Of a stretch of DNA of 64,000 nt, positions 1,654 through 60,418 are shown piece after piece; position 1 is the stretch's first letter; every line of letters starts with the position of its first letter. Position numbers and translations under genes: made by a program. The DNA lies in NCBI GenBank assembly GCA_002786915.1, contig PCUV01000049.1:62001-126000 (forward strand), given 5' to 3'. Below the pieces are notes generated by a model that was given only the letters and a program-made list of their open reading frames with translations, searched no databases and was not told where the DNA came from. The DNA is from Comamonadaceae bacterium CG12_big_fil_rev_8_21_14_0_65_59_15. Lineage in GTDB: Bacteria > Pseudomonadota > Gammaproteobacteria > Burkholderiales > Burkholderiaceae_C.

Positions 1654-1935
1654 TCAACTTGCGGCATCCGCCGTGTCGTCCAGCAGGGCCAGGCGTGCGT
1701 GCACACGCGCGTCAATGTGGCTCCATATCTGCCGCTTGGCATCCTCATCGGCTTGCCCCCAAGCCGAGATTTCGGGCAGGGTACGCAGGCAGCCCCGACA
1801 CAGGCCGCTGGCCTCATCCATCTGGCACACCGACATGCAGGGCGACGGCAGAGCTTGCGCATATTTTTGGCCTCCGGACCTTATGTCATCTGAGGTAGCA
1901 GCTATGTACTTCATAGCTTTCAAATCAAACATCAA
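1654..1935 (-). CDS. DUF1289 family small cysteine protein with a repeat-derived N-terminus
   Basis: This 93-residue protein has the DUF1289 pattern: C33 and C37 (PCMSVC), then C46 and C49 (CRGC), followed by R-T-L-x-E-I-x-x-W. Four such cysteines suggest a bound metal or Fe-S cluster (inference). The start is well supported: an AGGAGGT ribosome-binding site precedes ATGATG, and the ATG overlaps the YbaK stop as ATGA. Residues 7-25 are encoded by a dispersed repeat element (1861-1917) that is also found in lolB and thiL, so the N-terminal third upstream of the first cysteine is probably not ancestral. Function unknown. Confidence 0.85.
   Translation of the reverse strand: MMFDLKAMKYIAATSDDIRSGGQKYAQALPSPCMSVCQMDEASGLCRGCLRTLPEISAWGQADEDAKRQIWSHIDARVHARLALLDDTADAAS
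1861..1917 (-). repeat. 57-bp dispersed element, copy in the DUF1289 gene
   Basis: The minus strand encodes A-M-K-Y-I-A-A-T-S-D-D-I-R-S-G-G-Q-K-Y over 19 codons. It matches the lolB and thiL copies in length and frame. On the plus strand the element contains TTGGCCTC at 1867-1874 and AGCAGCTAT at 1897-1905. The copy at 30756-30812 has the same two blocks at identical spacing. Confidence 0.75.
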
Positions 1936-2447
1936 GCCACCTCCTGCAAGGCCACATCCACCACCGGCGCGCCGGTGAGACGCTGCAAGTCATGAGGATG
2001 CAACTTGAACACGCCGTGCGGATGCCCGGCAGCCGCCCATATTTCGTCAAAGCGTAACAAATCGCGGTCGATCAAGGTCACCGGCGCGTTGACATGCGCC
2101 ACGGGCGACACCCCACCGATGGAAAAACCGGTGCTGGCTTTGACAAAATCCGCGTCGGCGCGGCCCAGCTTCTGTCCCTCGGCGCACACCAGTGCCTGCA
2201 CTTTTTTCTCGTCCACACGCCGGTCGCCGCTGGTGATGACCAACACCGCAGCGGCGTCAGGCTTGCGTTTGAAGATGATGCTTTTGGCAATCTGCCCAAG
2301 CTGCACGCCCAGCGCGTCGGCGGCCTGCTGTGCCGTGCGCGCTGCGTCGTCAAGCATCACCGGCGCGTGCGCATGCCCTTTGTCTTGCAACGCCCGGGCG
2401 ACGCGCTGTACGCCCTCGGGCAAAGTTTTGAGTTCAGCACCGCACAT
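1932..2447 (-). CDS. YbaK/EbsC-type aminoacyl-tRNA deacylase
   Basis: A 171-residue YbaK/prolyl-tRNA-deacylase domain protein of the kind that hydrolyses mischarged tRNA (often Cys-tRNAPro or Ala-tRNAPro). Family features include K-S-I-I-F-K near residue 55, VLVITSGDRRVD, and FSIGGVSPVAH, which matches the conserved GGVSP region. The start is placed at ATG 2447, preceded by AGAGGT with 7-base spacing; an upstream start would add 13 residues inside the lyase gene. It overlaps the end of the HMG-CoA lyase gene by 14 bases and the start of DUF1289 by 4, which points to translational coupling. The exact tRNA substrate cannot be read from the sequence. Confidence 0.9.
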   Translation of the reverse strand: MCGAELKTLPEGVQRVARALQDKGHAHAPVMLDDAARTAQQAADALGVQLGQIAKSIIFKRKPDAAAVLVITSGDRRVDEKKVQALVCAEGQKLGRADADFVKASTGFSIGGVSPVAHVNAPVTLIDRDLLRFDEIWAAAGHPHGVFKLHPHDLQRLTGAPVVDVALQEVA

Positions 2448-3357: not shown

Positions 3358-3479
3358 GAAGATACTTTCCGTAATAAACCCGGTAACTTTAACCTCTGCT
3401 CGCGTGTGTTTCATGTGGCGATATGGCAAACTGGATCGGTATGCGGGATACTTTCGTTGATTTTTGATAAGGGCCAATT

Positions 3480-6274: not shown

Positions 6275-6287
6275 GGTGCAAGGGCTT

Positions 6288-6752
6288 TCAATGGGCGCTG
6301 CCAGCACGCGCCTGGTGTCCAAACTTGAGCATGCGTGTAGCGATCAGAGTTTCGGTCAAAAAACACAGCAAGGCCAGCAAAAAGCAGATCACACCGGCCA
6401 AAAACAGGATGGTGGCGATGCGAAAGATCTGTAGCTCGGTGGTTTCACCCAAAAACAACGCCATGATAGTCAGCCCGATCATGATGGCGCAAAACGTCAG
6501 CAGGGCAATGCAGGTGTTGACCAGCGCGCCGCGTTGGCGCAGTTGCCCGAGTTCAGCGTAGGCCGCTGCCATGGGGTCGCTGGCGGGGGCTTTTTCAACG
6601 CGCTCTTCCAGCACCCGTGCGCGGTCGATGATGCGCGCGAGCCGCCCGGCCACGCTGCCAATCATGCCCGCCACCGCAGTGAGCAAAAAAACCGGGGCCA
6701 CCGCCAGCTGGATGCCGTGGGTGACGGTGTCAAGGTCGGTGGCAAAAAACAT
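6288..6752 (-). CDS. DUF2721 family membrane protein
   Basis: A 154-residue protein with three predicted membrane segments (about residues 15-35, 80-102 and 112-135). Between the first and second lies a charged helix containing R-L-A-R-I-I-D-R-A-R-V-L, which matches the DUF2721 pattern as I know it. The start at ATG 6752 has an AAGGA ribosome-binding site 7 bases upstream. The stop lies 13 bases before the ATG of the cNMP/CBS gene, so the two are probably co-transcribed, with HAD phosphatase and prfC upstream on the same strand. Function unknown. Confidence 0.78.
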   Translation of the reverse strand: MFFATDLDTVTHGIQLAVAPVFLLTAVAGMIGSVAGRLARIIDRARVLEERVEKAPASDPMAAAYAELGQLRQRGALVNTCIALLTFCAIMIGLTIMALFLGETTELQIFRIATILFLAGVICFLLALLCFLTETLIATRMLKFGHQARAGSAH

Positions 6753-6779: not shown

Positions 6780-7637
6780 TTACGGTGTGCTGCGCGCCTG
6801 AAGTATCGCGCGTGCCAGCTCGGCAAAGCCAGCCCCGCGCTCAGCCGTGGTGAGGTAGCGCGGCAGGTGCGTCAGGCCCGCAGCGCAGTGGTGGATGTTG
6901 GCCACGCCCACGCTGTGCCTGAAGTGCTCAAACATAGGCTGGTCGTTGCCCGAGTCGCCCACAAACACCCATTGATCAAGCTCACTGGCCAGTTCGCGCC
7001 CGTACAGGCGCTGCACCAGCCAGCAGGCACCTTGCCATTTGTTGAAGTCACCATAGCAGCCGTGAATGTGGATACTGCTGACACTGGTGTGCATGCCCTC
7101 ACTGTGCAGGGTCTCCAACACCTGCTGCACCAGGGCAGCGCTCAGGTGATGGTGTTCGTTGTAGTCAAAGGCGATGTCGGTTTCGCGCCCACCCTGGTTT
7201 TGCGCCAGCCGCGCCTGCGGCACTTCGCGCAGCACGCGCTCTGCGGCCTGCTGCATCCGGGCCTGGTTAGCGGCGCGCTCGGGATAGGATTGTTGGTATA
7301 TTTTTAATAGTTGCTTAGATTTGTCCTGTATCGTCTGAACGGCATTTTTTCTTATATTTTCTGGTACCAGCGCCAGTGCCCCGTTTTCAGCCAGCAGCGC
7401 GTCCAGCGGTAGCGGTGCAATGCCTTGTGCCGCATCACCTTGCGCCAGACGCTCGCACCAGCCGATGTGTCGCCCCGTCACCGCAATCGCCTGCAAGCCT
7501 GCCGCACGCAGATCAGCCAAGGCCTGCAAGGCGTCAGCGGTGATGACTCCGCGCGTGGTGAGCGTGTCGTCGATGTCGGTAAAGACACCGGTGATGTGGC
7601 GGCGTTCAGTCAGCGGCCATTCGGCAAGCGGCTTCAT
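6780..7637 (-). CDS. HAD-superfamily hydrolase (Cof / sucrose-phosphatase-like subfamily)
   Basis: A 285-residue HAD phosphatase. Motif I is D-I-D-D-T-L (nucleophile and acid-base aspartates), motif II is the threonine of AVTGR, and motif IV is G-D-S-G-N-D near the C-terminus. The large cap between II and IV is typical of class II (Cof, sucrose-phosphatase, mannosyl-3-phosphoglycerate phosphatase) members, so a sugar phosphate is a likely substrate but is not proven. The start is ATG 7637 with AAGGA upstream, 13 bases after prfC ends. An AT-rich stretch around 7290-7350 stands out from the GC-rich surroundings and encodes part of the cap. Confidence 0.85.
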   Translation of the reverse strand: MKPLAEWPLTERRHITGVFTDIDDTLTTRGVITADALQALADLRAAGLQAIAVTGRHIGWCERLAQGDAAQGIAPLPLDALLAENGALALVPENIRKNAVQTIQDKSKQLLKIYQQSYPERAANQARMQQAAERVLREVPQARLAQNQGGRETDIAFDYNEHHHLSAALVQQVLETLHSEGMHTSVSSIHIHGCYGDFNKWQGACWLVQRLYGRELASELDQWVFVGDSGNDQPMFEHFRHSVGVANIHHCAAGLTHLPRYLTTAERGAGFAELARAILQARSTP

Positions 7638-16128: not shown

Positions 16129-16146
16129 GCGCCTGAAATTGCAAGC

Positions 16147-16195
16147 TTTTTATGCCTCTAGCCCTTGTTTGATAAGGACGTACAGTTACAAATAA
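16147..16195. repeat. 57-bp dispersed element, diverged intergenic copy
   Basis: The stretch carries T-rich 16147-16151, GCCTCTAGCCCTT at 16154-16166 and ACAGTTAC at 16182-16189. These fall at the spacing seen in the element copy at 50899-50955 (AGCCCTT, then 14 bases, then the AGCAGCTAT region). It lies in the 92-base gap where malQ and the P-type ATPase gene converge. Confidence 0.55.
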
Positions 16196-16220
16196 CAGAG
16201 CAACTTGGGGCTGACGCTGC

Positions 16221-28495: not shown

Positions 28496-28974
28496 GCAGT
28501 GTCCTTTGTCAAGAGGGTCAACAGGTGTGTCAGTGATGCGCTGACCGTGGCGCGTCGTACCGTAGCGCGGTCGCCCGCAAAGTGGTGGCACGCGCTGTGC
28601 AGGCCGCCCGGGGTGGCCCAGCCGATCCAGACCGTGCCCACCGGTTTGTCGGCACTGCCGCCATCGGGGCCGGCCACGCCGGTGACGGCCACGGCAACCT
28701 GCGCGTGCGCATGCGCCAGCGCGCCCTGCGCCATGGCACGCACCACCGCGTCACTGACTGCGCCATGCTGCGCGATCAGCGCTGGTGCGACGCCCAGCAG
28801 TTCGGTCTTGGCGGCGTTGGAATAGGTGACAAAGCCGCGTTCAAACCAGCGGCTGGAGCCAGGCAGGTCGGTGCAGGCGGCGGCGATCAACCCGCCGGTG
28901 CAGCTTTCGGCGCTGGCCAGCATCCACCCGCGTTGGAGTAAGAAATCTGCCAGAAGTCCAGTTGTATCTTGCAT
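28489..28974 (-). CDS. pncC: Nicotinamide-nucleotide amidohydrolase PncC (CinA C-terminal family)
   Basis: PncC deamidates nicotinamide mononucleotide to nicotinate mononucleotide in NAD salvage. The 161-residue protein is a stand-alone CinA C-terminal domain with A-E-S-C-T-G-G-L (catalytic serine), G-F-V-T-Y-S-N-A-A-K, G-A-V-S-D-A-V-V-R-A-M-A and V-A-V-T-G-V-A-G-P-D-G-G. It follows pgpA after 39 bases, a conserved pairing in betaproteobacteria as I recall, and overlaps the response-regulator start. Confidence 0.94.
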   Translation of the reverse strand: MQDTTGLLADFLLQRGWMLASAESCTGGLIAAACTDLPGSSRWFERGFVTYSNAAKTELLGVAPALIAQHGAVSDAVVRAMAQGALAHAHAQVAVAVTGVAGPDGGSADKPVGTVWIGWATPGGLHSACHHFAGDRATVRRATVSASLTHLLTLLTKDTAC

Positions 28975-29013
28975 ATATTGCTCTGTTTTTAAGAGTCTTT
29001 ACCGCCCGTGCTA

Positions 29014-30521: not shown

Positions 30522-31520
30522 TCAGGCGAAGTGGTCAAAAGAGGCATACGTGTTGGGCACAGCCTGACCTTGGTGATCCATCAGCCGCAGCCCAGGCGCC
30601 GCGTCGATCTGGCCGATGCGTGTGACCGGGGTGTGGGCAGTTTGTGCGGCGGCTGCTACGGCGCTGCGCATCGCTGTGGGCGCGGTAAACAACAGCTCGT
30701 AGTCGTCGCCACCACACAAGGTCAACAAGCGCCGCTGCACCTCGGAAAGGTTAATGGAAAATTGGCCTCTCGCACCCGTTGAACAAGCGCTAGCAGCTAT
30801 CAATGATGAAGCGCTATCGACGTTGACAGTGGCCCCGATACCGGAGCATTCCAGAATGTGCCCCAGGTCCCCCAGCAGCCCGTCGCTGACGTCGATGGCC
30901 GCGCTGGCGATGCCGCGCAACGCCAGCCCCAGCGTCACGCGCGGCGTGGGCTGTTCCAGCCGCTGGCGCGCTTGGGCCAACACGTCTGCCGGCAAATCTG
31001 CCTTGCCCAGCAAAGCGTCCAGTGCCAGCCGTGCGTCGCCCAGGGTACCGCTAACATAGATGTCGTCCCCCGCATGCGCACCCGAACGCAACAGCGCTTG
31101 AGACCGTCCGCCCGGCGCAGGAACTTCGCCAAAAACAGTGATGCAAATGTTCAGCGGCCCGGCGGTGGTATCCCCGCCCACCAGCTCGCAGCCGTGTGCG
31201 TCGGCCAGCGCCAATAACCCGTCGGCAAACGCCGCCAGCCAGGGCTCATTGACCTCGGGCAACGCCAGCGCCAGCGTGAACGCCAGCGGTTGCGCGCCGC
31301 AGGCCGCCAGGTCGCTCAGGTTCACCGCCAGCGACTTGTGGCCGAGCGCTCGTGGGTCCACGTCGGGGAAAAAGTGACACCCTGCCACCAGCATGTCGCT
31401 GGAGATGGCCAGCTGGTGCCCCGGGCGGGGTTGCAGCAGCGCGCAGTCGTCGCCCACGCCCAGCGCAGCGCGTCGCGCAGGCCGCGTGAAGTAGCGCGCA
31501 ATCAGGTCGAACTCACCCAT
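30522..31520 (-). CDS. thiL: Thiamine-monophosphate kinase
   Basis: ThiL phosphorylates thiamine monophosphate to thiamine pyrophosphate. The 332-residue protein has G-E-F-D-L-I-A-R-Y-F, G-V-G-D-D-C-A-L-L, S-D-M-L-V-A-G-C-H-F, K-S-L-A-V-N-L-S-D-L-A-A-C-G, G-G-D-T-T, and the late G-G-D-D-Y-E-L-L-F-T. Between the I-D-V-S-D-G-L segment and GGDDYELLF a variable loop is about ten residues longer than in E. coli as I remember it. Residues 237-255 of that loop are encoded by the dispersed 57-bp element. ATG 31520 overlaps the upstream gene by 8 bases. Confidence 0.93.
   Translation of the reverse strand: MGEFDLIARYFTRPARRAALGVGDDCALLQPRPGHQLAISSDMLVAGCHFFPDVDPRALGHKSLAVNLSDLAACGAQPLAFTLALALPEVNEPWLAAFADGLLALADAHGCELVGGDTTAGPLNICITVFGEVPAPGGRSQALLRSGAHAGDDIYVSGTLGDARLALDALLGKADLPADVLAQARQRLEQPTPRVTLGLALRGIASAAIDVSDGLLGDLGHILECSGIGATVNVDSASSLIAASACSTGARGQFSINLSEVQRRLLTLCGGDDYELLFTAPTAMRSAVAAAAQTAHTPVTRIGQIDAAPGLRLMDHQGQAVPNTYASFDHFA
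30756..30812 (-). repeat. 57-bp dispersed element, copy in thiL
   Basis: The minus strand encodes A-S-S-L-I-A-A-S-A-C-S-T-G-A-R-G-Q-F-S over 19 codons. Frame and length match the lolB and DUF1289 copies. On the plus strand it has the 19-base core CAAGCGCTAGCAGCTATCA at 30784-30802, one base different from the core at 50925-50943, and TTGGCCTC at 30762-30769. Confidence 0.78.
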
Positions 31521-36788: not shown

Positions 36789-38057
36789 TTACCAATCCAC
36801 CAGGCTCAAGCCGACGCTGAGCACGGTGCGGCGGCGGTTGTAGTCCACCAGTGAGTCGCCATAGCCACTGAACAATTGGGTGTGAAAGCGCAGGCCGCCG
36901 GGGTTGTTGGGCGCGTCGTTGCTACCCAGCTTGCGCAGCCATTCGAGCTTGAACGAGCCGCTGTTGCCGTTGAACAGTGCATGGCGCAGCGTCAGGCCCA
37001 GGGTGTTATTTGAGTCGGCGTACCAAAAACCGGCCACTTCGGCGCGACCCATGCGCACGTCAATGTCCGGGTTGTCGTCATCGCTGGCGTTTTCCGGAAT
37101 ACGCTGCCATAGTTTGGCCTGCACCGTAAGGTTCGGGCCGCGTTCCATGCCGGCCAGCAAGATGGTGCGGTTCCAACTGCGCGAAAACGGCAGTGGTTGC
37201 CCATTGGACTGGTGGTTCAGGCTCACGCCCCCATAGCGCAGCCGCCAGCCCCACGCCAGCGCCGCGTCAAACGGGTAGATGTAGATCAGCTCGGGCTCGT
37301 GGTCGGTGGTGCGAAACGGGCGCGACAGGTCGCCGCTGAAAATCTGCCAATTGGACTGCTGGCTGTAGGCAAACCAGATCGAGTCACGCTTCTGCGGCTC
37401 GTCACGGGTCAGCAAGCCCCGGGCAATTTTGGTGCGAACCGACAAGCCGACGCGTGTTTCTACGGTGCGGTAGGGCACCGACGTGCTGGCGTTGTTGGGC
37501 AGCGACGGTGAGCTGGGTTGCGTGTTGACGCTGTCCGAGCCGATCCAGCTCAGGCTGATGGGACGGTAGCCACGCAGGCCAAAGGTGCCGCAGTCGCTAC
37601 CGGCTTCGAGCTCCCAAAAGCGTGACAACTCGGAAAAGCGCGGATTCTTGCAGTCGTGCACGGTCGGCGCTTGCATGGTGATGACAACGGGCGCTTGCTG
37701 GTGGGTGGGTGGAGCGATGGGGGCTGTGTTGGCCTGGGTTGCCCCGCCTTGCTGTGCAGCCCAGCGGTCAAAGCATTGCAGGCGTGCGTCTGGGTCGTCT
37801 TGCAGGGCTTGGCATTGTTGCCACTGGCGGGGTACTGCTGGGGTGGGGCCTTGTACGATATTTTCCGGTGCTGCCCAAGCGATTGATGTGCAATGAACTA
37901 TAAAAGAAATAGCAACCAACAACTGCGCATTGTGTTGTGCTGCACGGGCCTGGGCTGTTGCCAGAGAGATTTTGGTGCGTTGATGTGACCACATGACGAG
38001 CGTTTGTTTGGCAAGCAAATGGGTGGGCTGGCGGCGGTTGATGTTGCCCCTGATCAT
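36789..38057 (-). CDS. pldA: Outer-membrane phospholipase A
   Basis: PldA (OMPLA) is a Ca2+-dependent outer-membrane beta-barrel that hydrolyses phospholipids misplaced in the outer leaflet. Catalytic residues are visible in V-S-L-N-H-Q-S-N-G-Q and S-R-S-W-N-R (His, Ser and Asn). The protein ends in the aromatic residue expected for a barrel (S-L-V-D-W). A 'Q-C-x-x-L-x-D-D-x-A-R-L-x-C-F-D' segment after the signal is typical of the betaproteobacterial form. The signal peptide is encoded by a possible copy of the dispersed element (residues 49-67), leaving an unusually long, charged stretch before it. The start is uncertain: ATG 38057 or ATG 37994. Confidence 0.9.
   Translation of the reverse strand: MIRGNINRRQPTHLLAKQTLVMWSHQRTKISLATAQARAAQHNAQLLVAISFIVHCTSIAWAAPENIVQGPTPAVPRQWQQCQALQDDPDARLQCFDRWAAQQGGATQANTAPIAPPTHQQAPVVITMQAPTVHDCKNPRFSELSRFWELEAGSDCGTFGLRGYRPISLSWIGSDSVNTQPSSPSLPNNASTSVPYRTVETRVGLSVRTKIARGLLTRDEPQKRDSIWFAYSQQSNWQIFSGDLSRPFRTTDHEPELIYIYPFDAALAWGWRLRYGGVSLNHQSNGQPLPFSRSWNRTILLAGMERGPNLTVQAKLWQRIPENASDDDNPDIDVRMGRAEVAGFWYADSNNTLGLTLRHALFNGNSGSFKLEWLRKLGSNDAPNNPGGLRFHTQLFSGYGDSLVDYNRRRTVLSVGLSLVDW
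37857..37913 (-). repeat. 57-bp dispersed element, probable copy in pldA
   Basis: The minus strand encodes A-I-S-F-I-V-H-C-T-S-I-A-W-A-A-P-E-N-I. It aligns codon for codon with the lolB copy (A-I-L-S-I-A-G-C-A-D-F-K-R-A-S-D-Q-K-Y), with GCT ATT, ATA and TGC codons shared at the same positions. It is more diverged than the lolB, thiL and DUF1289 copies. Confidence 0.5.
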
Positions 38058-42938: not shown

Positions 42939-44465
42939 ATGTTTTATCTACCCCCTTTCATTGCGCCCGAGCGTTTTACCGACCCGGCTGCTGCCTTGGC
43001 CCAGGTGCAGGCGATTTACGACAACAGCATTGCCCACCTGCGCCAGGCCATGCAGGCCTATGTGGCGGGTAACGACCTGCCCGGCCATGTGCGCGCCTGC
43101 TACCCGTTTGTGCGCGTGCAGACCGATACCACGCAGCGATTGGGCAGTGCCGACGCAGCGCGCCTGAGCTACGGTTTTGTCGCCGGTGCGGGCCGCTTCG
43201 AGACCACGCTGACGCGGCCCGACCTGTTTGCCAGCTACTACCTGGCGCAGTTCACCCTGCTGCTGGAAAACCACCACGTGGAGCTGGAGGTGGGCACCAG
43301 CAACCAGCCGATTCCGGTGCATTTTTCATTTGCCGACAACGAACACATCGAGGGCACCCTGAACCCGCAGCGCCGCCAGCTGATGCGTGATGTGTTTGAC
43401 CTGCCCGATCTGACCGCCATGGACGACGGTATCGCCAACGGCACTCATGTGCCGCAGCCCGGTGAGGCGCAACCCCTGAGTCTGTTCACCGCACCGCGCG
43501 TGGACTACTCGCTGCAGCGCCTGCGCCACTACAGCGGCACCGCGCCCGAGCACTTCCAGAACTTTGTGCTGTTCACCAACTACCAGTTTTATATTGATGA
43601 ATTTATCGCGCTCGGCCATGCCCAGATGGCACAAGAAGCTACCGAATACATAGCGTTTGTGGAGCCGGGCAACGTGGTGACTCCCAAATTGGGGTCGGAT
43701 CCCAATTTTGCGTCAGCGGAATTGGGCTCTGACCCCAATTTCCCCCGCAGCGCTGGCACGCCCCCGCCGCGTCTGCCCCAAATGCCCGCCTACCACCTCA
43801 AGCGTGCGGATGGCAGCGGCATCACCATGGTCAACATCGGTGTCGGCCCGGCCAATGCCAAGACCATCACCGACCACATTGCCGTGCTGCGCCCGCACGC
43901 CTGGATCATGCTGGGCCACTGCGCCGGCCTGCGCACCACGCAAAACCTGGGCGACTACGTGCTGGCGCACGGTTATGTGCGTGAAGACCATGTGCTGGAC
44001 GAAGAACTACCGCTGTGGGTGCCGATCCCGGCACTGGCCGAAATTCAGGTTGCGCTCGAGTCTGCCGTGTCCGAGGTGACCCAGCTCAAAGGCGCGGCGC
44101 TGAAAAACATCATGCGTACCGGCACCGTGGCCAGTACCGACAACCGCAATTGGGAGCTATTGCCCGACAACGGCCCGCAACGGCGCTTCAGCCAGAGCCG
44201 CGCCGTGGCGCTGGACATGGAGTCCGCCACCATCGCTGCCAACGGTTTTCGCTTTCGGGTGCCCTATGGCACGCTGCTGTGTGTGAGCGACAAGCCGCTG
44301 CACGGCGAAATCAAGCTGCCCGGCATGGCCAATCACTTTTACCGCGAACGCGTGGATCAGCACCTGCGTATTGGCGTGCGCGCGCTGGAGCTGCTGCGTG
44401 CGCAAGGTGTGGATTCATTACACAGCCGCAAATTGCGCAGCTTTGCTGAGGTGGCTTTTCAGTAA
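42939..44465 (+). CDS. amn: AMP nucleosidase
   Basis: Amn hydrolyses AMP to adenine and ribose-5-phosphate. The 508-residue protein has the family's N-terminal domain (P-F-I-A-P-E-R-F, R-A-C-Y-P-F-V-R-V) and a C-terminal nucleoside-phosphorylase-like domain with V-N-I-G-V-G-P-A-N-A-K-T, M-L-G-H-C-A-G-L-R, and A-L-D-M-E-S-A-T-I-A-A-N-G. It is about 24 residues longer than E. coli Amn (484). The excess lies in the interdomain linker at residues ~249-270, where two tandem palindromes each encode L-G-S-D-P-N-F in frame. Confidence 0.94.
   Translation: MFYLPPFIAPERFTDPAAALAQVQAIYDNSIAHLRQAMQAYVAGNDLPGHVRACYPFVRVQTDTTQRLGSADAARLSYGFVAGAGRFETTLTRPDLFASYYLAQFTLLLENHHVELEVGTSNQPIPVHFSFADNEHIEGTLNPQRRQLMRDVFDLPDLTAMDDGIANGTHVPQPGEAQPLSLFTAPRVDYSLQRLRHYSGTAPEHFQNFVLFTNYQFYIDEFIALGHAQMAQEATEYIAFVEPGNVVTPKLGSDPNFASAELGSDPNFPRSAGTPPPRLPQMPAYHLKRADGSGITMVNIGVGPANAKTITDHIAVLRPHAWIMLGHCAGLRTTQNLGDYVLAHGYVREDHVLDEELPLWVPIPALAEIQVALESAVSEVTQLKGAALKNIMRTGTVASTDNRNWELLPDNGPQRRFSQSRAVALDMESATIAANGFRFRVPYGTLLCVSDKPLHGEIKLPGMANHFYRERVDQHLRIGVRALELLRAQGVDSLHSRKLRSFAEVAFQ
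43687..43707. repeat. 21-bp palindromic element, copy 1 in amn
   Basis: AATTGGGGTC/GGATCCCAATT is an imperfect palindrome with 8-bp outer arms (extended to 43686-43708). Read on the plus strand it encodes L-G-S-D-P-N-F. Copy 2 lies 33 bases downstream. Confidence 0.8.
43720..43740. repeat. 21-bp palindromic element, copy 2 in amn
   Basis: AATTGGGCTC/TGACCCCAATT is 18 of 21 identical to copy 1 and again encodes L-G-S-D-P-N-F in the same frame. The 33-base spacing between the copies is a multiple of three. Confidence 0.8.
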
Positions 44466-44666: not shown

Positions 44667-46916
44667 TCACGCCACCGCCACACTCAGCTTGAGCAGCTCA
44701 GCACCCTCCACCACCTGGTCACCCGGCGCATAGAGCAGCTCAGCCACCACGCCGTCCACCGGTGCGGCGATGGTGTGCTCCATCTTCATGGCTTCCAGCA
44801 CCGCCAACGCCTGGCCTTTTTGCACCGTGTCACCGGCCTGCACGGCAAATGAGATCACTTTACCGGGCATGGGTGCGGTCAGGCGACCAACCTCAGTCGG
44901 AGCCTCGCCCGCGTGTGCCAGCAAATCCACTGCAATGATTTGTGTAGCGCCTTGCGCAGTAAAGATATGGGCTACCTCGCCTTTTCGGTACACATTGACG
45001 AACGCGCGTAGGCCTGCAAATTGCAGATCGATGCCATCTGGCGTGGCGGTAAATGACAGCACGCCGGAAGCAGGTTGGGCAGTGGCATCCACAGCGCCTG
45101 AATGGATGGCATCCGTTATGGCTACACCACCCACCTCACCCGAAACCAGGCCGGAATCAGCTTTCGTAGCGCTAGCGCACACGCTCAAGTGCAGCGCGCC
45201 GTCGTGCAGGTAACGCAGCGTGGCTTGGGCGCTCTGACCGTCAAATTCAAAGGCAAAACGCCGCTCGGCCACGCCCAGCGCGCGCCAGCCGTCGGTTTGG
45301 CTGAAGGGGTCTGCGGTGTGCGTGGCACTCTCATCCAACAGGGTTTGCGCCACGGCGGCAGCAGCGGCCAGCGCCAAACCGACGCGTTGCTGGTTGAACA
45401 ACACGGCGGCCTCGCGCGGGATCAGGCCGGTGTCCAGATGCGCGTTGGCGAACGATGGCGACTGCAGCACATAGCGCAAAAACTGCACGTTGCTGGTCAG
45501 GCCGACGATGTGCGTGGCCGCCAGTGCCGCGTCCAGCCGGGCCAGCGCCTGGGCACGCGTGTCGCCGTGCACGATCAGCTTGGCCACCATCGAGTCGTAA
45601 TACGGGCTGATGGCGTCGCCCTGGCGCACGCCGTCGTCAAAGCGCACCGGGCGGCCACTGCGCGCAGAGCCCTCACTCCTGCCCTCTCCCAGGGGGAGGG
45701 GGAGAAACACCGGGGGCTGGAATGCCACATGCGGCGGCTTGCGATAGACATCCAGCGTGCCGGTGGCGGGCAAAAAGTCGTGGTCGGGGTTTTCGGCGCA
45801 GATACGCGCTTCGATGGCGTGACCGGTGATGCGCAACTGGTCTTGCGTCAGCGGTAATGGTTCACCGCTGGCCACGCGCAATTGCCATTCCACCAAGTCC
45901 TGACCGGTGATGGCTTCGGTGACAGGGTGCTCCACTTGTAGGCGCGTGTTCATTTCCATGAAGAAAAAAGCCCCCACGCTCCCCACTTCGTTGGGTTCGC
46001 CACCCCCCGAGGGGGCCTTCGCGCCTTGGGACGGCCCGGCAGCGCTCAACCCGTCCTCTTGCGTCTCTGGCAGTCGCTGCTCCACAATAAATTCCACCGT
46101 GCCCGCGCCCACGTAGCCCACGGCGCGCGCAGCGGCCACGGCGGCTGCGCCCATACGCGCGCGCAGCTCAGGGGTCATGCCCGGCGCGGGGGCTTCTTCC
46201 AGCACTTTTTGATGGCGGCGCTGCACCGAGCAATCGCGCTCAAACAAATACACATAGTTGCCCTGCGTGTCGCCAAACACCTGGATTTCGATGTGGCGCG
46301 GACGCTGCACGTATTTCTCTACCAGCACCGCGTCGCTGCCAAAGCTGCTGATGGCCTCGCGCTTGCAACTGGCCAACGCGTCCAGAAAATCCTGCGCACA
46401 TTCCACCGCGCGCATGCCTTTGCCACCGCCACCGGCGCTGGCTTTGATCAGCACCGGGTAGCCGATGCGGTCTGCCTCGCGCCGCAACAAGGCTGGGTCT
46501 TGGTCGGCACCGTGGTAGCCTGGCACAAGGGGCACCCCGGCTTGCTCCATCAGACGCTTGGATTCAGCCTTCAAGCCCATGGCTTGCATGCTGGCCGCCG
46601 GTGGGCCGATGAACACCAGGCCCGCCGCGGCGCAGGCGCTGGCAAAGTCGGCGTTTTCGCTCAGGAAACCGTAGCCGGGGTGAATGGCTTGGGCACCGCT
46701 GGCTTTGGCCGCTTCAATGATGCGCTGCCAGCGCAGGTAGCTGTCTTTGGGCGCGCTGCCACCAATGTGCACAGCCTCATCGCACGCCGCCACGTGTTTG
46801 GCACTGGCGTCCGCGTCGGAATACACCGCCACGGTTTGGATGCCCATGCGCCGGGTAGTGGCGGCCACACGGCAGGCGATCTCGCCCCGATTGGCAATGA
46901 GAATTTTGGTGAACAT
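44667..46916 (-). CDS. liuD: Methylcrotonyl-CoA carboxylase, biotin-containing alpha subunit
   Basis: The alpha subunit carboxylates its biotin with ATP and bicarbonate for carboxylation of 3-methylcrotonyl-CoA in leucine breakdown. Domains are biotin carboxylase (1-~500, A-G-G-G-G-K-G-M, F-F-F-M-E-M-N-T-R-L-Q-V-E-H-P-V-T-E), a linker, and a C-terminal biotinyl domain with E-A-M-K-M-E-H. At 749 residues it is some 70-80 longer than usual (about 660-680). Two in-frame inserts explain most of the excess: residues ~281-314 directly before the FFFMEMN strand, and ~398-422 before V-R-F-D-D-G-V. The frame is intact. The start has GGAAA upstream. Confidence 0.93.
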   Translation of the reverse strand: MFTKILIANRGEIACRVAATTRRMGIQTVAVYSDADASAKHVAACDEAVHIGGSAPKDSYLRWQRIIEAAKASGAQAIHPGYGFLSENADFASACAAAGLVFIGPPAASMQAMGLKAESKRLMEQAGVPLVPGYHGADQDPALLRREADRIGYPVLIKASAGGGGKGMRAVECAQDFLDALASCKREAISSFGSDAVLVEKYVQRPRHIEIQVFGDTQGNYVYLFERDCSVQRRHQKVLEEAPAPGMTPELRARMGAAAVAAARAVGYVGAGTVEFIVEQRLPETQEDGLSAAGPSQGAKAPSGGGEPNEVGSVGAFFFMEMNTRLQVEHPVTEAITGQDLVEWQLRVASGEPLPLTQDQLRITGHAIEARICAENPDHDFLPATGTLDVYRKPPHVAFQPPVFLPLPLGEGRSEGSARSGRPVRFDDGVRQGDAISPYYDSMVAKLIVHGDTRAQALARLDAALAATHIVGLTSNVQFLRYVLQSPSFANAHLDTGLIPREAAVLFNQQRVGLALAAAAAVAQTLLDESATHTADPFSQTDGWRALGVAERRFAFEFDGQSAQATLRYLHDGALHLSVCASATKADSGLVSGEVGGVAITDAIHSGAVDATAQPASGVLSFTATPDGIDLQFAGLRAFVNVYRKGEVAHIFTAQGATQIIAVDLLAHAGEAPTEVGRLTAPMPGKVISFAVQAGDTVQKGQALAVLEAMKMEHTIAAPVDGVVAELLYAPGDQVVEGAELLKLSVAVA
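45651..45725. repeat. In-frame repeat-like insert 2 in the MCC alpha gene
   Basis: The 75-base stretch contains CCCTCTCCC (45682-45690) next to GGGGGAGGG (45692-45700), an inverted repeat. It encodes L-P-L-P-L-G-E-G on the gene strand. I remember this peptide, and its reverse-strand reading L-T-P-A-L-S-Q-G-E, from a widespread bacterial intergenic repeat. It interrupts the spacing between Y-R-K-P and V-R-F-D-D-G-V expected in biotin carboxylases. Boundaries are approximate. Confidence 0.65.
45975..46076. repeat. In-frame repeat-like insert 1 in the MCC alpha gene
   Basis: About 102 bases with the inverted repeat CCCCCC-GA-GGGGG (46004-46016) and GCCTTGGGACGGCCCGG (46024-46040). This arrangement is very like an intergenic repeat I remember as common in Burkholderiales. 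It encodes about 34 residues rich in G, S, P and E between F-I-V-E-Q and F-F-F-M-E-M-N, which normally lie only a few residues apart. Boundaries are approximate. Confidence 0.68.
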
Positions 46917-50348: not shown

Positions 50349-51374
50349 ATGCCCCGCGTCCCCCAAACCACCGCCGCCACGCCCATTGCCTTCGTCCATT
50401 GCATTGTGCAAGCGTATCAACGGCGCGGCATGGATGCGTCTGCCGCTTTACAACAGGCACACATTGCGCCAGAGCAACTGCAGAACCCGGTGGCGCGCGT
50501 CACGGCCATGCAATTTGAAGCCTTGTCCAGCCATGCGATGCGAGAGCTGGACGACGAAGCGCTGGGCTGGTTTGGCCGCCGCTTGCCGTGGGGTAGTTAC
50601 GGCATGTTGGCGCGGGCCAGCATCAGCGCGCCCAACCTGGGTGTGGCCTTGCAGCGTTGGTGTCGCCACCACGGGCTGATTGCGGGCGACATCGCGCTCA
50701 CGCTCAACACCGATGCAGGCACCGCCACACTGACCCTCACCGAACACCGAGACTTGGGCGTCCTGCGCGAGTTTTGCCTGGTCTCCATCCTGCGCAATTT
50801 TCATGGGCTAGCGTGCTGGTTGGTGGACTCGCGGATCCCGCTCACGGGCGCACAGTTTCCGTTTGGCAGGCCTGATCATGGCGCTGTCTATCAAGTTCTT
50901 TTTTCGGCTCCAGCCCTTTTCAATCAAGCGCAAGCAGCTATCAGTTTTGATGCAAGTTACCTGACCCTGCCGCTGCGCCGCGACGAGGCCGCGCTGCGCC
51001 AGATGCTCATGCGCGCCCTACCCTTAACCGTGCTGCAGTACCGCCGCGACCGCCTGCTGGTGCAGCGTGTGCGCCAGGCGCTGGCAAACCAGCCCGCCGA
51101 CACGCACAGCGCCGACGACCTGGCCGCGCTGCTGGCCATGTCGCCGCGCACATTGCACCGCCAACTGAAAGATGAAGGTGCGTCGTTACAAGCGCTGAAA
51201 GACGAGGTGCGCCGCACGCGCGCGCAAGACTTGCTGCTGCGCACCCGACGTCCGATCAAACAGGTGGCTCAAACGACAGGGTTTCAGAATGAAAAAAGCT
51301 TTATGCGGGCGTTCAAGGCGTGGACAGGACAATCACCGGCGGAGTTCAGGAACGCGCAAGCGGCATGCCGCTGA
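50349..51374 (+). CDS. AraC-family transcriptional regulator
   Basis: A 341-residue regulator with the N-terminal arabinose-binding-like domain of the OruR/ArgR-type AraC subgroup (about 15-210) and a C-terminal double helix-turn-helix (about 240-335: M-S-P-R-T-L-H-R-Q-L-K, then V-A-Q-T-T-G-F-Q-N-E-K-S-F-M-R-A-F-K-A-W-T-G). It is divergent from liuB, so it is probably the activator of the liu genes. Residues ~184-202 are encoded by a sense-orientation copy of the dispersed element. The start is ATG 50349; a GTG at 50298 is less likely. Confidence 0.88.
   Translation: MPRVPQTTAATPIAFVHCIVQAYQRRGMDASAALQQAHIAPEQLQNPVARVTAMQFEALSSHAMRELDDEALGWFGRRLPWGSYGMLARASISAPNLGVALQRWCRHHGLIAGDIALTLNTDAGTATLTLTEHRDLGVLREFCLVSILRNFHGLACWLVDSRIPLTGAQFPFGRPDHGAVYQVLFSAPALFNQAQAAISFDASYLTLPLRRDEAALRQMLMRALPLTVLQYRRDRLLVQRVRQALANQPADTHSADDLAALLAMSPRTLHRQLKDEGASLQALKDEVRRTRAQDLLLRTRRPIKQVAQTTGFQNEKSFMRAFKAWTGQSPAEFRNAQAACR
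50899..50955 (+). repeat. 57-bp dispersed element, sense copy in the araC-like gene
   Basis: It contains CAGCCCTTTTCAATCAAGCG (50911-50930) and the core CAAGCGCAAGCAGCTATCA (50925-50943), which matches 30784-30802 at 18 of 19 bases. Read sense it encodes S-A-P-A-L-F-N-Q-A-Q-A-A-I-S-F-D-A-S. The other genic copies are read from the opposite strand. Confidence 0.75.
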
Positions 51375-52768: not shown

Positions 52769-53671
52769 ATGAAGTCCAAATTCAAGTTGGTGGCGCTGAT
52801 TGGAAAGTACCAAACTTTTTTCAGCAACGCATCGGTGGCCAGTTCACGCGAGGCACTCGAAGCGGTGGCGCGGTTTCTGCACGCGCAGGGTTGCGAGGTG
52901 GTGCTGGAAGAAGACTCCGCGCGCAACATGGGCCTGGTGGGCTACACCCAACTGACGGCACAACAGATCGGTGAACAGTGTGACCTGGGCTTGGTGGTGG
53001 GGGGTGATGGCACCATGTTGGGCATAGGTCGGCAAATGGCCTCCTATGGTGTGCCCCTGATCGGTATCAACCAGGGTCGGCTGGGTTTCATCACCGATGT
53101 GCCGTACCAGAATTTTGCGCAGACGCTGGAACCCATGCTGCACGGCGATTACGTGGAAGACCACCGCAGCCTGATGAATGCGCGCGTGCTGCGCGACGGC
53201 AACTGTGTCTATACCGCGATGGCCATGAACGACGTGGTGGTCAACCGCGGTGCCGCCTCTGGCATGGTCGAGTTGCGGGTGGAGGTGGACGGCCATTTTG
53301 TGGCCAACCAGCGCGCCGACGGGCTGATCATTGCCACGCCCACCGGTTCGACTGCGTATTCGCTGTCTTCGGGGGGGCCGCTGCTGCACCCTTCCATTCC
53401 CGGCTGGGTGATGGTGCCGATTGCGCCGCACACGCTGTCCAATCGGCCCATCGTGCTGTCGAACAGCTCGCACATCGCCATTGAAATTGTCGCCGGGCGC
53501 GACGCCAGCGCCAGCTTTGACATGCAGTCGCTGGCGTCGCTGTTGCACGGTGACCGCATTGAAGTGGTCCGGTCTGAGCACCATGTGCGGTTTTTGCATC
53601 CCCGGGGCTGGTCTTACTTTGACACCCTGCGCGAAAAACTGCATTGGAACGAAGGGGTGTCGCCCTCATGA
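52769..53671 (+). CDS. nadK: NAD kinase
   Basis: NadK phosphorylates NAD to NADP. The 300-residue protein has the G-G-D-G-T motif ([10 protein letters not shown]), [15 protein letters not shown] and [14 protein letters not shown]. The start is ATG 52769. Its stop overlaps the recN start as ATGA, so the two are translationally coupled; hrcA / nadK-recN is a common arrangement in proteobacteria. Confidence 0.96.
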
Positions 53672-55329
53672 GCCTCAAACGCATTGTTTTGCGTGACTTT
53701 GTCATCGTGCGCGAGCTGGAGCTCGACCTGGCCGACGGCTTCACCGTGTTGACAGGTGAAACCGGCGCGGGCAAGTCGATCCTGATCGACGCGCTGCAGT
53801 TAGCCACCGGCGGACGCGCCGATGTGGACCTGATCCGCGAAGGTGCTACGCGCGCCGAGGTGAGTGCGGAATTTGACAACACGCCGGCCACGCTGGCCTG
53901 GCTGCAAGCGGGCGGCTTTGACGCAGATACAACGCTGCTGATGCGCCGAACCATCGACGCACAAGGCAAGAGCCGCGCCTGGATCAACGGCAGCCCGGCC
54001 ACCGCGACCCAGTTGCGCACATTGGGTGAGGCACTGCTGGACATTCATGGGCAACACGCCTGGCAAAGCCTGACGCGCCCGGACACCGTGCGTGCGCTGC
54101 TGGACGCCTACGCCAAGACATCCACGCACGCCGTAGCCACTGCCTGGCAGCAGTGGCAGCAGGCGCAAGCGCAGCTCAGCCAGGCGCAACTGGCCCAGGA
54201 TTCTTTGCAAGGCGAACGCGAGCGCCTGTTGTGGCAGCTGGGTGAGCTCGAAAAACTCTCGCCCGGCACAGACGAATGGCCGGCCTTGAACGCCGAGCAC
54301 ACGCGTTTGTCGCACGCACAGGCCTTGCTGGACGCCGCGCAAGCCGCACTGGCAGCGCTGGATGGAGAGGAAGGCGGCGTCTGTTTGCAGCTCGGCGAGG
54401 GGCTTGAAACACTGCAAAAACAAGAGCACATTGAGCCTGTTTTTAAAGGGCTGACAGAGGTTTTTTCTTCCAGCCTGGCGCAGCTGCAAGACACCGCGCA
54501 CACGTTGCGTGTTTACCTGCGCAAGACCGAGCTGGACCCGCAGCGACTGCAAACGCTCGACGATCGCATGGCACTGTGGCTGTCGCTGGCGCGGCGCTAC
54601 AAGCGCCCGCCAGAGGAACTGCCCGCTCTGCTGGCCAGTTGGAAAGAGCAGTTGCAAGCACTGGACGCCGCCAGCGACCTGCAGAGCCTGCACGCCAGGG
54701 TCAGCAGCGCGTGGCAGATTTACCAAAGTGAAGCCGACGCGCTGACCGCGGTGCGCCGCAGCGCCGCCCCTCGCCTGGCGCACACCATTACTGAAGTCAT
54801 GCAGGAGCTGGGCATGCACGGCGGTCAGTTTCAGGTGCAGCTTGACAAGACCGCTGAGCCGATGCAGTTTGGCCAGGAAGAGGTGCGCTTTTTGGTCGCA
54901 GGTCACGCGGGCAGTGCCCCCCGCGCAGTCGCCAAGGTGGCTTCTGGCGGCGAACTGTCACGCCTGGCGCTGGCCATTGCCGTCACCACGAGCCGCCTGG
55001 GCACCGCGCAGACGCTGATCTTTGACGAAGTGGACGCCGGCATTGGCGGCGCCGTAGCCGAAACCGTAGGCAGGCTGATGCGCCAGCTGGGCCAAGACCG
55101 CCAGGTGCTGGCGGTGACGCATCTGCCACAGGTGGCCGCCTGCGCCGACCACCACTGGGTGGTCAGCAAGCAGATGCAGGGGCCGTCCACCTTGAGTTCG
55201 GTCACCGTGGTCTCTGGCGAGCAGCGTGTGGACGAGCTGGCACGCATGATGGCAGGCGAGCGCATCCTGGCCAGCACGCTGGCGCATGCGCGTGATCTGC
55301 TGCAAACACAAGCCAGTACCAAGGACTGA
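53668..55329 (+). CDS. recN: DNA repair protein RecN
   Basis: RecN is an SMC-like ATPase that acts early in double-strand-break repair. The 553-residue protein has Walker A G-E-T-G-A-G-K-S, a long central coiled coil rich in E, Q, L and A (about 150-370), signature [13 protein letters not shown], and Walker [11 protein letters not shown]. The start is ATG 53668, overlapping nadK. rapZ begins immediately after its stop. Confidence 0.96.
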
Positions 55330-55330
55330 C

Positions 55331-57273: not shown

Positions 57274-57293
57274 CCGGAGCCAACCCAAAGCGC

Positions 57294-58109: not shown

Positions 58110-58148
58110 GAAACTGGCTCTTTAGGCGGGTTCGATTATTATGTCTGC

Positions 58149-59897
58149 ATGCGTATTTACCCGATCGTCTTGCCGTTTGTTGCAGCGTTGTTTTGCAGTC
58201 ATGCCATCGCCATCGAGCCGTCCAGGCCCGCCGTTTCCAGCGAAACGGCCATAGCAAAAGCTTCGGCCATGGATGCGCCACTGTTTTATCAGATCCTGAT
58301 CGGTGAGCTCAGCGCGCGCGCGCAACAGCCCTCAGAGGCTTTCTCGATGATGCTCGACGCGGCGCGCAAAACTGGCGACACAGCACTGTTTCGCCGCACT
58401 GTACAGATCGCATTACAGGCACGCTCAGGCGAGTCTGCGTTGCAGGCCGCCAAGGCATGGACGCTGGCCCAGCCTGACTCGCTGGAGGCCAACCGGTTTG
58501 TGTTGCAAATTTTGTTGGCACTCAGCCGCGTGGCTGACACGCTGGAACCTCTGAAAAAGGAAATCGCCCTGACGCCGGTTGAGGCACGCAGCCAACTGAT
58601 CTGGTCCCTGCCCGGCGTGTATGACCGGGCACGCGACAAGCAGGCGGTTGTGACGGTGGTGCAAAAAGCCCTGGCAAAGCCTCTCAAGCAGCCCGACTTG
58701 GCAGCTACTGCGTGGGCCACGCTGGGGCGTTTGTGGCAGAGCGCTGGCAAGACCAACGAGGCACTGGGCGCGGCACAAAAAGCCCAGCAATCCGATCTGC
58801 GCTCAGAATACCCGGCCTTGCTGGCTTTGTCCTTGATAGCCGCTGGCTCGGCACAAGCCGAAGCGGTGGTCGAAAAACATCTCCCTTTTGCCCGCCCCGA
58901 ATTCCGCATGGCTTACGTGAAAGTCTTGCTGGGCACCCGGCGGGAGGCAGACGCCCAGGTGCAGCTGTTGTATCTTCAAGATAACCACCCCGATTACGCT
59001 GATACATGGCTGGTCAGTGGCGCTCTGGAGCTACAGCAGGCCCAACCTGCTCTGGCTGAGCAGCATTTGCAACGCTATCTCGACTTGACCCAAACTGCTG
59101 CGTCAACCAAGCAAACGCCAGAGCTTCAACGCGGACGATCGCAGGCGCTTCTGGCAATGGCCCAGATCGCCCAACAACGGAAAGACATCCCCGCAGCACT
59201 GCAATGGCTGGAGAAGGTGGACAACCCGGACGATGTCTTGCGCGCGCAAATCCGGCGTGCTGCGCTAATTGCCAAGCAGGGGCGTCTTGACGAGGCCGTG
59301 CAATTGCTCCGCAGCCAACCCGAACGCTCCGAATCGGATGCCAGATTGAAGCGCTCAGCAGAAGTACAGATGTTGCGTGAACAGCACCAGCTGGAGCGGG
59401 CGCGCGCCACACTGGAGGCGTTCATCGCCCAGTTTCCGGACGACTTTGACCTGGTGTACGACCTGGCGATGGTGCATGAAAAGCTGGGCGATTTACCCGA
59501 GATGGAGCGCTTGCTGCGCCAGCTCATCGCCAACCGCCCCGACGACCCGCACGCCTACAACGCGCTGGGTTATTCGCTGGCAGACCGCAGGCTGCGTTTG
59601 CCCGAGGCCATGACCCTCATCACGAAAGCGCTGGAGCTTGCCCCCAACGATCCGTTCATTACCGACAGCCTGGCGTGGGCCCACTTTCGCAGTGGCAATC
59701 AATCCGAGGCCCAGCGCCTACTGCAACAGGCATTTGATGCCCAGCCGGACGCGGAAATAGCCGCCCACTTGGGCGAAGTGTTATGGGAAAGCGATTTGCG
59801 CAGCCAGGCAATTGACATCTTCAAGCGGGGTTTGCAGCTCAACCCCGACAACGAGACGCTCAAGGAAGCACTCCGCAGATTGCGCGTTCCGCTGTGA
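58149..59897 (+). CDS. TPR-repeat exported protein upstream of lolB
   Basis: A 582-residue protein with an N-terminal signal peptide (V-L-P-F-V-A-A-L-F-C-S-H-A-I-A) and many tetratricopeptide-type helical repeats spread over the whole length; clearest in the C-terminal third (A-Y-N-A-L-G-Y-S-L-A-D-R, D-S-L-A-W-A-H-F-R-S-G). It is probably periplasmic or membrane-attached. TPR proteins at this position before lolB-ispE are common in Burkholderiales. The specific function is unknown; a scaffold role is plausible. The stop overlaps the lolB ATG by one base. Confidence 0.87.
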   Translation: MRIYPIVLPFVAALFCSHAIAIEPSRPAVSSETAIAKASAMDAPLFYQILIGELSARAQQPSEAFSMMLDAARKTGDTALFRRTVQIALQARSGESALQAAKAWTLAQPDSLEANRFVLQILLALSRVADTLEPLKKEIALTPVEARSQLIWSLPGVYDRARDKQAVVTVVQKALAKPLKQPDLAATAWATLGRLWQSAGKTNEALGAAQKAQQSDLRSEYPALLALSLIAAGSAQAEAVVEKHLPFARPEFRMAYVKVLLGTRREADAQVQLLYLQDNHPDYADTWLVSGALELQQAQPALAEQHLQRYLDLTQTAASTKQTPELQRGRSQALLAMAQIAQQRKDIPAALQWLEKVDNPDDVLRAQIRRAALIAKQGRLDEAVQLLRSQPERSESDARLKRSAEVQMLREQHQLERARATLEAFIAQFPDDFDLVYDLAMVHEKLGDLPEMERLLRQLIANRPDDPHAYNALGYSLADRRLRLPEAMTLITKALELAPNDPFITDSLAWAHFRSGNQSEAQRLLQQAFDAQPDAEIAAHLGEVLWESDLRSQAIDIFKRGLQLNPDNETLKEALRRLRVPL

Positions 59898-60418
59898 TGA
59901 AGCAACGTCGCAGGGCGCTCTTTTGCGCTTTTTTTGCTATTTTATCAATAGCTGGATGCGCTGATTTCAAAAGGGCTTCAGACCAAAAATATTCTGAAAA
60001 CGAACGCTGGAGCGGCCGTTTGTCGCTACGCACCCTAGGTCAGCCACCACAAACGTTGGATGCGGCCCAGGCTTTTCAGGGTGCCTTTGAGTTGCAGGGC
60101 AACGCAGAACAAGGGGACTTGCGTTTTTTGACACCACTGGGTAGCACGGCGGCGTGGATCCGCTGGAATCCACAGGGCGCCGAGTTGCTGGCGCACGGAG
60201 AAACGCGCCAATTTGGCAATCTTGCGCAACTCGTCAGCCAGGCCGTGGGTGCCGATCTGCCGATCGCTGCACTTTTTTCATGGCTACGGGGGCAATCGCA
60301 CGCAGTGGACGGCTGGCAGGTGGATCTGAGTGGCTGGGCAGCAGGCAAAATTGCAGCGCGCCGCACCACCCCCGAGCCAGTCACAGAACTGCGACTGGTG
60401 CTGGACAACGCCCCTTAA
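59897..60418 (+). CDS. lolB: Outer-membrane lipoprotein LolB
   Basis: LolB receives lipoproteins from LolA and inserts them into the outer membrane. The 173-residue protein has a basic start (M-K-Q-R-R-R), a hydrophobic stretch, and the lipobox I-A-G-C with the lipidated cysteine at 21. The mature part has R-W-S-G-R-L-S-L and a Leu/Trp-rich strand pattern typical of LolB. Residues 14-32, including the lipobox cysteine, are encoded by the dispersed element. The start is ATG 59897 directly at the TPR gene stop. Neighbours TPR and ispE support the assignment. Confidence 0.92.
   Translation: MKQRRRALFCAFFAILSIAGCADFKRASDQKYSENERWSGRLSLRTLGQPPQTLDAAQAFQGAFELQGNAEQGDLRFLTPLGSTAAWIRWNPQGAELLAHGETRQFGNLAQLVSQAVGADLPIAALFSWLRGQSHAVDGWQVDLSGWAAGKIAARRTTPEPVTELRLVLDNAP
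59936..59992 (+). repeat. 57-bp dispersed element, copy in lolB
   Basis: It encodes A-I-L-S-I-A-G-C-A-D-F-K-R-A-S-D-Q-K-Y over 19 codons, in the same frame and of the same length as the DUF1289 and thiL copies. It matches the reverse complement of the araC copy at 26 of 36 ungapped positions downstream of ATAGCT (59949-59954). Confidence 0.75.

Follow-up and report, generated by a model that had tools for sequence, protein, structure and literature searches.

A dispersed motif of about 66 bp in Comamonadaceae genomes that seems to enter coding DNA mostly without added length, tentatively read as an uptake-sequence-like signal

The window analysed here is a stretch of 64,000 nucleotides from the genome of Comamonadaceae bacterium CG12_big_fil_rev_8_21_14_0_65_59_15 (contig PCUV01000049.1, positions 62,001 to 126,000), and our subject is a dispersed motif of about 66-70 bp, copies of which lie in or beside lolB, thiL, a DUF1289 gene, the gene for an AraC-family regulator and, weakly, pldA. 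Copies have been scored with a covariance model, R1, which was run over the window with filters off, and with a position weight matrix (PWM). The training set of R1 included the thiL and araC-like copies and excluded those of lolB and DUF1289, while the PWM was trained on 42 R1 copies called outside gene interiors in the same genome sequence, among which the lolB copy was wrongly included as intergenic and none of the thiL, araC-like, DUF1289 and pldA copies was present. R1 gave five matches at E<=5 in the window. The lolB copy (59932..60001, plus strand; R1 42.3 bits, E 9.5e-8; PWM 63.3) lies in the signal peptide in sense phase 0, and its ATAGCTGGATGC encodes the IAGC lipobox. The thiL copy (30747..30816, minus strand, in the minus-strand gene 30522-31520; PWM 54.7, R1 63.0) is also in sense phase 0 and encodes the peptide SASSLIAASACSTGARGQFSINL. 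The AraC-family regulator gene (50349-51374, plus) carries a copy at 50888..50957 on the minus strand (PWM 55.1, R1 55.3), which is in antisense phase 1 and gapless against a congener. The DUF1289 copy (1852..1921, minus; PWM 27.2; R1 18.9 bits, E 0.1), a member of neither training set, lies at or just upstream of the start; its ends fit the consensus and its centre has diverged, and since the start chosen for DUF1289 by the gene finder lies further downstream, the copy is only putatively translated. The borderline N-terminal copy of pldA (37848..37917, minus; PWM 11.2) lies outside the start given by the gene finder, a home-made program (codon log-odds) that misses the lolB start and may misplace other starts. 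This copy is probably real, because the PWM at 10 bits or more finds 201 matches in 1.18 Mb of the genome versus 2 in reversed and 2 in complement-only controls.

Six further copies were found in the window. By gene calls, 16136..16205 (minus; PWM 46.1, no R1 match at E<=5) and the borderline 28931..29000 (minus; PWM 14.2) are intergenic. A degenerate copy at 7291..7360 (plus; PWM 35.6; R1 13.7 bits, E 2.3) is antisense in the called gene 6780-7637 (minus), and three weak copies are gapless against the congener: 54407..54476 (plus; PWM 25.0), in sense phase 2 of the called gene 53668-55329 (plus); 44928..44997 (plus; PWM 24.5), in antisense phase 1 of the gene 44667-46916 (minus), where 19 of 24 residues are the same as in the congener; and 43589..43658 (minus; PWM 21.9), in antisense phase 1 of the gene 42939-44465 (plus).

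An earlier note on this DNA had proposed a 57-bp element read in one shared frame by several of these genes. Its grouping of the lolB, thiL, DUF1289 and araC-like copies as one dispersed family is borne out by the R1 and PWM scores, and its coordinates were right; pldA stands as a weaker member by the PWM and is without an R1 match at E<=5. The unit is longer than proposed. The shared peptide pattern is indeed the sense phase-0 translation (ATA GCT GCT for I-A-A, GGC CAA TTT for G-Q-F), and thiL, lolB, DUF1289 and pldA all use ATA as a codon (ATA GTT in pldA), but in the araC-like gene the copy lies antisense and its frame differs, and genes use both strands of the motif, so the family is not a single element with a common reading frame.

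The motif consists of an AT-rich arm, ATAGCTGCTTGCGCTTG, a short spacer, A-AAGGGCTAGAGGCC and a second AT-rich arm, and the consensus from 91 copies (one genome per species) is attaCTactAaaTTg-ATAGCTGCTaGCGCTTGaTG.ATAAGCGCTAGAGGCC-AATTTgaCTtaAAattt. In these copies, and likewise in the window's own genome, conservation spans about -13 to +52 around the start of ATAGCT and is near-random outside. The core is an imperfect palindrome, and matches of 80 bp have a GC content of 0.30-0.59. Some 66 bp seem, from the counts of partial copies, to be recognised largely as one unit, because half-motifs are rare and cores come with matching flanks: a core with matching AT-rich flanks was found 88 times versus 3 without them, a left half with a poor right half 4 times versus 4 in reversed sequence, and a right half with a poor left half 20 times versus 3 in reversed sequence and 8 in the motif-poor congener G003. 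At motif positions 39-41, an A/T run flips between TTT and AAA as a block from copy to copy, unlike independent point substitutions.

In the genome of the window (4.34 Mb; G000 in the following), a 14-position core with at most one mismatch occurs 129 times versus 10 times for the backward-read pattern. In 60 stretches of this genome, 1.18 Mb in total, R1 gave 105 matches at E<=1; of 75 R1 matches at E<=0.01, 74 were taken further and one opposite-strand duplicate was left out. At 15 bits or more the PWM gave 180 copies, its 42 training copies included, versus 1 in reversed sequence, 1 in complement-only sequence and 5 in 1.16 Mb of G003, and extrapolation yields a total of roughly 660 copies per genome. 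The strands are balanced (97/83), and in the complete relative G162, 150 scored copies (74 on the plus strand) are spread over the whole chromosome with no significant replichore polarity (p 0.058). A replichore-oriented motif like Chi or the FtsK-orienting polar sequences (KOPS) had been considered after the best matches in a complete genome had seemed polar on visual inspection, and was rejected on the 150 scored copies. Another scan scored 150 of 1857 candidates.

With regard to genes, the 180 copies comprise 91 wholly within called genes, 45 in intergenic DNA, and a further 38 and 6 that overlap the 3' and the 5' end of a gene, respectively. The in-gene copies are unevenly distributed among frames, with 38 in antisense phase 1, 29 in sense phase 0, 8 in sense phase 2, 7 each in antisense phases 0 and 2, and 2 in sense phase 1. 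The conserved core, read by hand, is free of stops in both antisense phases 1 and 2 (the reading holds for this core and is unreliable in the arms), yet these two phases are split 38 to 7 (binomial p 3e-6 for an equal split), and because of this split the encoded peptide seems to matter beyond the absence of stops alone. In other genera, near-consensus copies were inside genes in 2 of 85 cases, 8 of 93 copies near locus ends having been set aside. A Pfam scan of 20 genes with R1 copies found, among others, an MmeI-type methylase, an AraC regulator, an M48 peptidase, NIF3, CheB, FAD oxidoreductases, an FtsX-like permease, EarP, LpxB, UvrD, DnaX, radical SAM and Mur ligase proteins.

Most genic copies were very probably formed in place and not by insertion. 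For 26 of the 91 in-gene copies, in 24 genes, a spanning orthologue passing our cut-offs was present in 1.16 Mb of G003, and the remaining 65 had no such segment. Across the motif 20 of the 26 are gapless, and the other six have 1, 4, 4, 7, 7 and 11 gap residues, the largest loss in the motif window being 11. Protein identity to G003 is 52% within the motif, and the same proteins have 80% over 1098 control windows. Compared with solved structures or distant homologues, LpxB is gapless over the motif, as is RlmI, in which 2 gap residues lie at the motif edge, and the extra residues number 1 in NIF3, 3 in an FAD oxidoreductase, 4 in EarP and 11 in ThiL. The cysteine of the LolB lipobox is in the same column in all 28 LolB rows from G000 and its congeners (29 rows were aligned, of which L207 is not LolB), and by this alignment the IAAC/IAGC of the motif sits on an ancestral lipobox. 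An insertion would have struck this lipobox only by coincidence.

The genus, probably Rhodoferax since R. antarcticus falls inside it in the ThiL tree, contains both motif-rich and motif-poor genomes. At E<=0.001 and with at most 117 matches scored per genome, R1 counts among 24 genomes (own included) exceed 100 in 8, are 43-63 in 4 and 1-3 in 6, and are zero in 6; in 16 genomes from the order's other families no match reaches this threshold. In a sample of the family, 42 of 120 genomes have a match and 22 have 31 or more (at most 39 scored, with stricter filters). An exact pattern scan with one genome per species gave 91 stretches, and the matches listed, 80 of the 91, come from Comamonadaceae genera (Acidovorax, Comamonas, Simplicispira, Extensimonas, Giesbergeria, Diaphorobacter, Rhodoferax and others) and from Burkholderiaceae or broader proteobacterial metagenome-assembled genomes. 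A similar stretch was found in 6 of 72,556 plasmid records and in one phage-collection record, which is a weak indication, since few of those records are from this family.

At thiL the same site is observed across genera: among ten named genomes, picked for carrying the motif somewhere, eight have the copy at the DNA level with 26-79 bits (Rhodoferax antarcticus, three Acidovorax, two Simplicispira, Diaphorobacter and Extensimonas), and it is absent from two Comamonas. Of 45 ThiL-coding sequences, 43 were scored. The site has 45.6-73 bits in all seven rich congeners with ThiL, own included (G020 is without ThiL), versus -39 to -7 in eight of nine poor ones; the mid-count genome G008 has 67, and six genomes without a motif count have 64, 51, 32, -21, -31 and -45. 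Over the ThiL loop, third-position GC is 0.18-0.55 in rows of at least 20 bits; the eight poor congeners with low scores have 0.59-0.82, Comamonas has 0.86-0.95 and the outgroups have 0.50-0.91, and the low-scoring G022 and G002 are still at 0.41 and 0.27. Upstream in thiL it is 0.69-0.95, except for 0.48 in one outgroup. Motif count and thiL score have a rank correlation of 0.87 (18 genomes in the tree with both values, uncorrected for descent), and on a ThiL tree made with the loop removed, the poor label needs five changes. These comparisons suggest that copies form and persist in place by substitution, and that they seem to depend on something acting in trans.

Further expectations of the earlier note agree with these results, namely hundreds of copies per genome in a family dispersed in Comamonadaceae, a clear excess over control sequence, and genic copies concentrated by frame, 67 of 91 being in two phases. 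Its proposal of an inserted segment, like the Rickettsia palindromic elements (RPE), is not supported for most copies, a 24-residue block in one gene, described below, being a possible exception. Orthologues with the same residues, which it had named as counter-evidence, do occur in part, in ThiL of other Comamonadaceae genera, while six ThiL of other families have a shorter loop.

The explanation that we tentatively favour, though we rate it a little below an even chance, is that of a long uptake-sequence-like signal which would serve DNA uptake in naturally competent Comamonadaceae. It is favoured because substitution in place, presence in coding DNA, use of both strands and decay with loss of the family resemble the uptake sequences of Neisseriaceae and Pasteurellaceae. 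A trans-acting factor would recognise a genome-wide motif of about 66 bp at the DNA level; we infer both this factor and uptake as its nature. Base substitution would create copies and maintain them where they stand, be it between genes, at their 3' ends or within them on either strand, provided that a genic copy encodes a tolerated peptide. The cell would prefer to take up fragments that match the motif better, and these would recombine with their homologous site, so that molecular drive would spread the motif, and where the specificity was lost the copies would decay. Verminephrobacter eiseniae, which has been listed under Comamonadaceae (PMC3110155), transforms naturally, and a limit on its uptake by sequence has been suggested, with no motif named (PMC4212676). 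A more far-reaching version, by which a DNA address of about 66 bp and of an undescribed kind overwrites resident sequence without added length, remodelling ThiL, the LolB lipobox, LpxB, UvrD and DnaX as a by-product, and depends on a trans factor that repeated losses have removed within one genus, appears to us unlikely.

Several observations weigh against this explanation. Known uptake signals have a short near-exact core of 10-12 bp (PMC2346458), and such a core was not found here: the 14-position core in G000 has 32 exact versus 97 one-mismatch matches in a long and fuzzy unit of about 66 bp, and the reversed control has left halves alone just as often. The poor congener G019 retains 34 bits at thiL, the mid-count genomes G022 (-10) and G002 (5) are both without a match there, and the independent rich/poor pairs number two to three, too few for significance. 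In lolB, only 4 of 28 loci (G000, G005, G011 and G022) match R1 at E<1e-6, with several rich genomes not among them (53 loci were searched; L207, L214 and L240-L242 were left out), so individual sites appear to be gained and lost among rich genomes. Indels are somewhat commoner in motif windows than in control windows, with 77% of genic copies gapless versus 95% of the 1098 controls. In one 1372-residue gene with two copies 93 bp apart (G000:C36:16768-16930, L178), the cases with 7 and 11 gap residues, a block of 24 residues absent from G003 spans the end of copy one and the start of copy two. This block, about one unit long, could be an insertion or a local duplication; we leave our judgement on in-place formation unchanged, because it concerns one of 24 genes only. 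The ThiL loop has 34-42 residues in motif-bearing orthologues versus 26-27 in six readable ThiL of other families, and thiL may include real added length by this comparison, in which 8 of 45 loops did not fit the pattern (own, two congeners, one named genome and four outgroups). Copies in G000 are spaced a little more evenly than expected by chance (p 0.04), those in G162 are not; even spacing has been rejected as a property of the motif. The presence in G000 of a PF03772 protein, which we take to be the competence protein ComEC, speaks for uptake, but all 16 genomes of the genus that were searched have one, whether rich or poor (G005 with a partial match only), and it has been dropped as a discriminating gene.

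The main rival, which we consider somewhat less probable than uptake and rather unlikely, is a selected binding site for a chromosomal protein acting in nucleoid organisation, topology or segregation, with a putative reader protein or the need for it lost in poor lineages, where the sites decayed. The in-place evidence fits it equally, and the action of the motif as a full-length unit, the TTT/AAA block swaps, as for a bent-DNA requirement, and the distribution of copies over the whole chromosome of G162 would suit it; the lack of significant polarity in G162 does not, and hundreds of sites of about 66 bp would be more and longer than any chromosome-organising sites known to us. Templated overwriting, that is recombineering or gene conversion from other copies with neither insertion nor selection, would account for replacement that keeps the length and for the full-length unit, but graded partial matches with high protein identity, such as the copy of 24.5 bits with 19 of 24 residues kept, fit stepwise substitution better, and no enzyme for it is known to us; we regard it as very improbable.

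Less weight than to a binding site is also given to a mobile element that inserts, similar to repetitive extragenic palindromic (REP) sequences, miniature inverted-repeat transposable elements (MITE) or RPE, its genic copies being old domesticated insertions that decay in poor lineages. The imperfect palindrome, the rarity of near-consensus copies within genes of other genera, the long ThiL loop with 11 extra residues against the solved ThiL, and the 24-residue block speak for insertion. On the other side are the 20 of 26 orthologue pairs without length change, a largest loss of 11 residues in the motif window, the small differences from distant homologues in LpxB, RlmI, NIF3, FAD oxidoreductase and EarP, and the kept LolB lipobox column. 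Y1 transposase (Y1_Tnp) proteins, moreover, are found in all 24 genus genomes, rich and poor, and R1 at E<=1 has no match in 8346 bases around the three Y1_Tnp loci of G000, for which reasons this transposase has been rejected as the driver. Insertion is largely refuted for genic copies, and as an account of the whole family it is improbable. The faintest chance is given to a structured RNA or terminator, which the palindromic core and the 38 of 180 copies overlapping a gene 3' end would suit. Covariation in the hairpin is not above shuffles (47 sequences), folding z-scores of five copies are 0.17 to -2.23, both strands are used inside genes, and only tRNAs reach the Rfam gathering score in the window, with no Rfam family at the motif; a structured RNA has been rejected on these grounds.

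Returning to an uptake-like signal, the motif resembles the DNA uptake sequences (DUS) of Neisseriaceae and the uptake signal sequences (USS) of Pasteurellaceae in its strong genome-wide over-representation and its restriction to a family. DUS and USS change by substitution in place, as most genic copies of the motif appear to have done, with the six copies of 1-11 gap residues and the ThiL length as exceptions. Known uptake sequences likewise have hundreds or more copies, both intergenic and often intragenic, show no general orientation bias (compare 97/83 and p 0.058 here), favour one orientation within genes and, in Pasteurellaceae, favour gene termini (PMC2346458). The motif differs from them in being about 66 bp long and fuzzy with a palindromic core, and in belonging to a family for which a limit on uptake by sequence has so far been suggested only (PMC4212676). 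With RPE it shares occurrence in many unrelated genes and a recurring encoded peptide (PMC10969869), but most genic copies add no length, the unit is shorter than about 150 bp, and both strands and two main frames are used; the in-frame insertion absent from orthologues that marks RPE was not seen, thiL and the two-copy gene being possible exceptions. As in REP sequences and REPINs with RAYT transposases, there is an imperfect palindrome and near-consensus copies are mostly intergenic or at gene ends; unlike them, about half of the G000 copies of at least 15 bits are genic, and no link to a Y1 transposase gene, nor a RAYT gene flanked by copies, was found in G000. BRE, a dispersed repeat of Bordetella and Comamonadaceae genomes with some copies in coding sequences, is about 90 bp long with 69% GC in Bordetella, forms tandem arrays and has at most 29 copies (PMC3110155); the motif is shorter and AT-rich, and is set apart from BRE by the published description only. 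No paper on the motif was found in the open-access literature by sequence string, among the matches listed and judged by title, and of the open-access papers found on Comamonadaceae repeats or uptake sequences, only the BRE and Verminephrobacter papers bear on it.

If the uptake-like explanation is correct, Comamonadaceae would have a genome-wide DNA signal of their own, one that greatly exceeds known uptake sequences in length, and a DNA signal would measurably bend protein evolution, since 24-residue windows of otherwise conserved proteins would have diverged to fit it. The presence of rich and poor species within one genus would make the trans factor findable. As a caution for annotation, peptides that recur, PLALI.QAQAAI and IAASA...RARGQF among them, may be translations of a DNA signal and not protein motifs.

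DUF1010 was considered as a general translation of the motif and rejected, because PF06231 matched only an integron-type plasmid protein and none of nine other motif open reading frames. The E. coli plasmid NZ_MZ513635.1 (L355:458-748) carries this DUF1010 gene between aadA2 and dfrA12, with a motif-like stretch at about residues 35-49 by coordinates, within the PF06231 match at 31-95, which suggests that the gene may be derived from a Comamonadaceae-like genome. In G000, three same-strand copies about 1.19 kb apart (L140:11003-13458, G000:C73) perhaps belong to a locally duplicated segment, and a Cas6-like gene and a Cmr2 gene (L122, G000:C21:1-20000) each contain an in-gene copy. The most over-represented 10-mers of G000, with 62-66 copies each (e.g., GAGTAAATACC and TTCAAAGGGATTAAGAC), resemble a CRISPR-array repeat. 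G003 has over-represented 10-mers of its own around TGGGGTCAGAGCACG and AGTGGTCTGA, with 15-32 copies in 1.16 Mb; similar strings occur beside RAYT-like genes, so that these 10-mers may belong to a separate repeat family.

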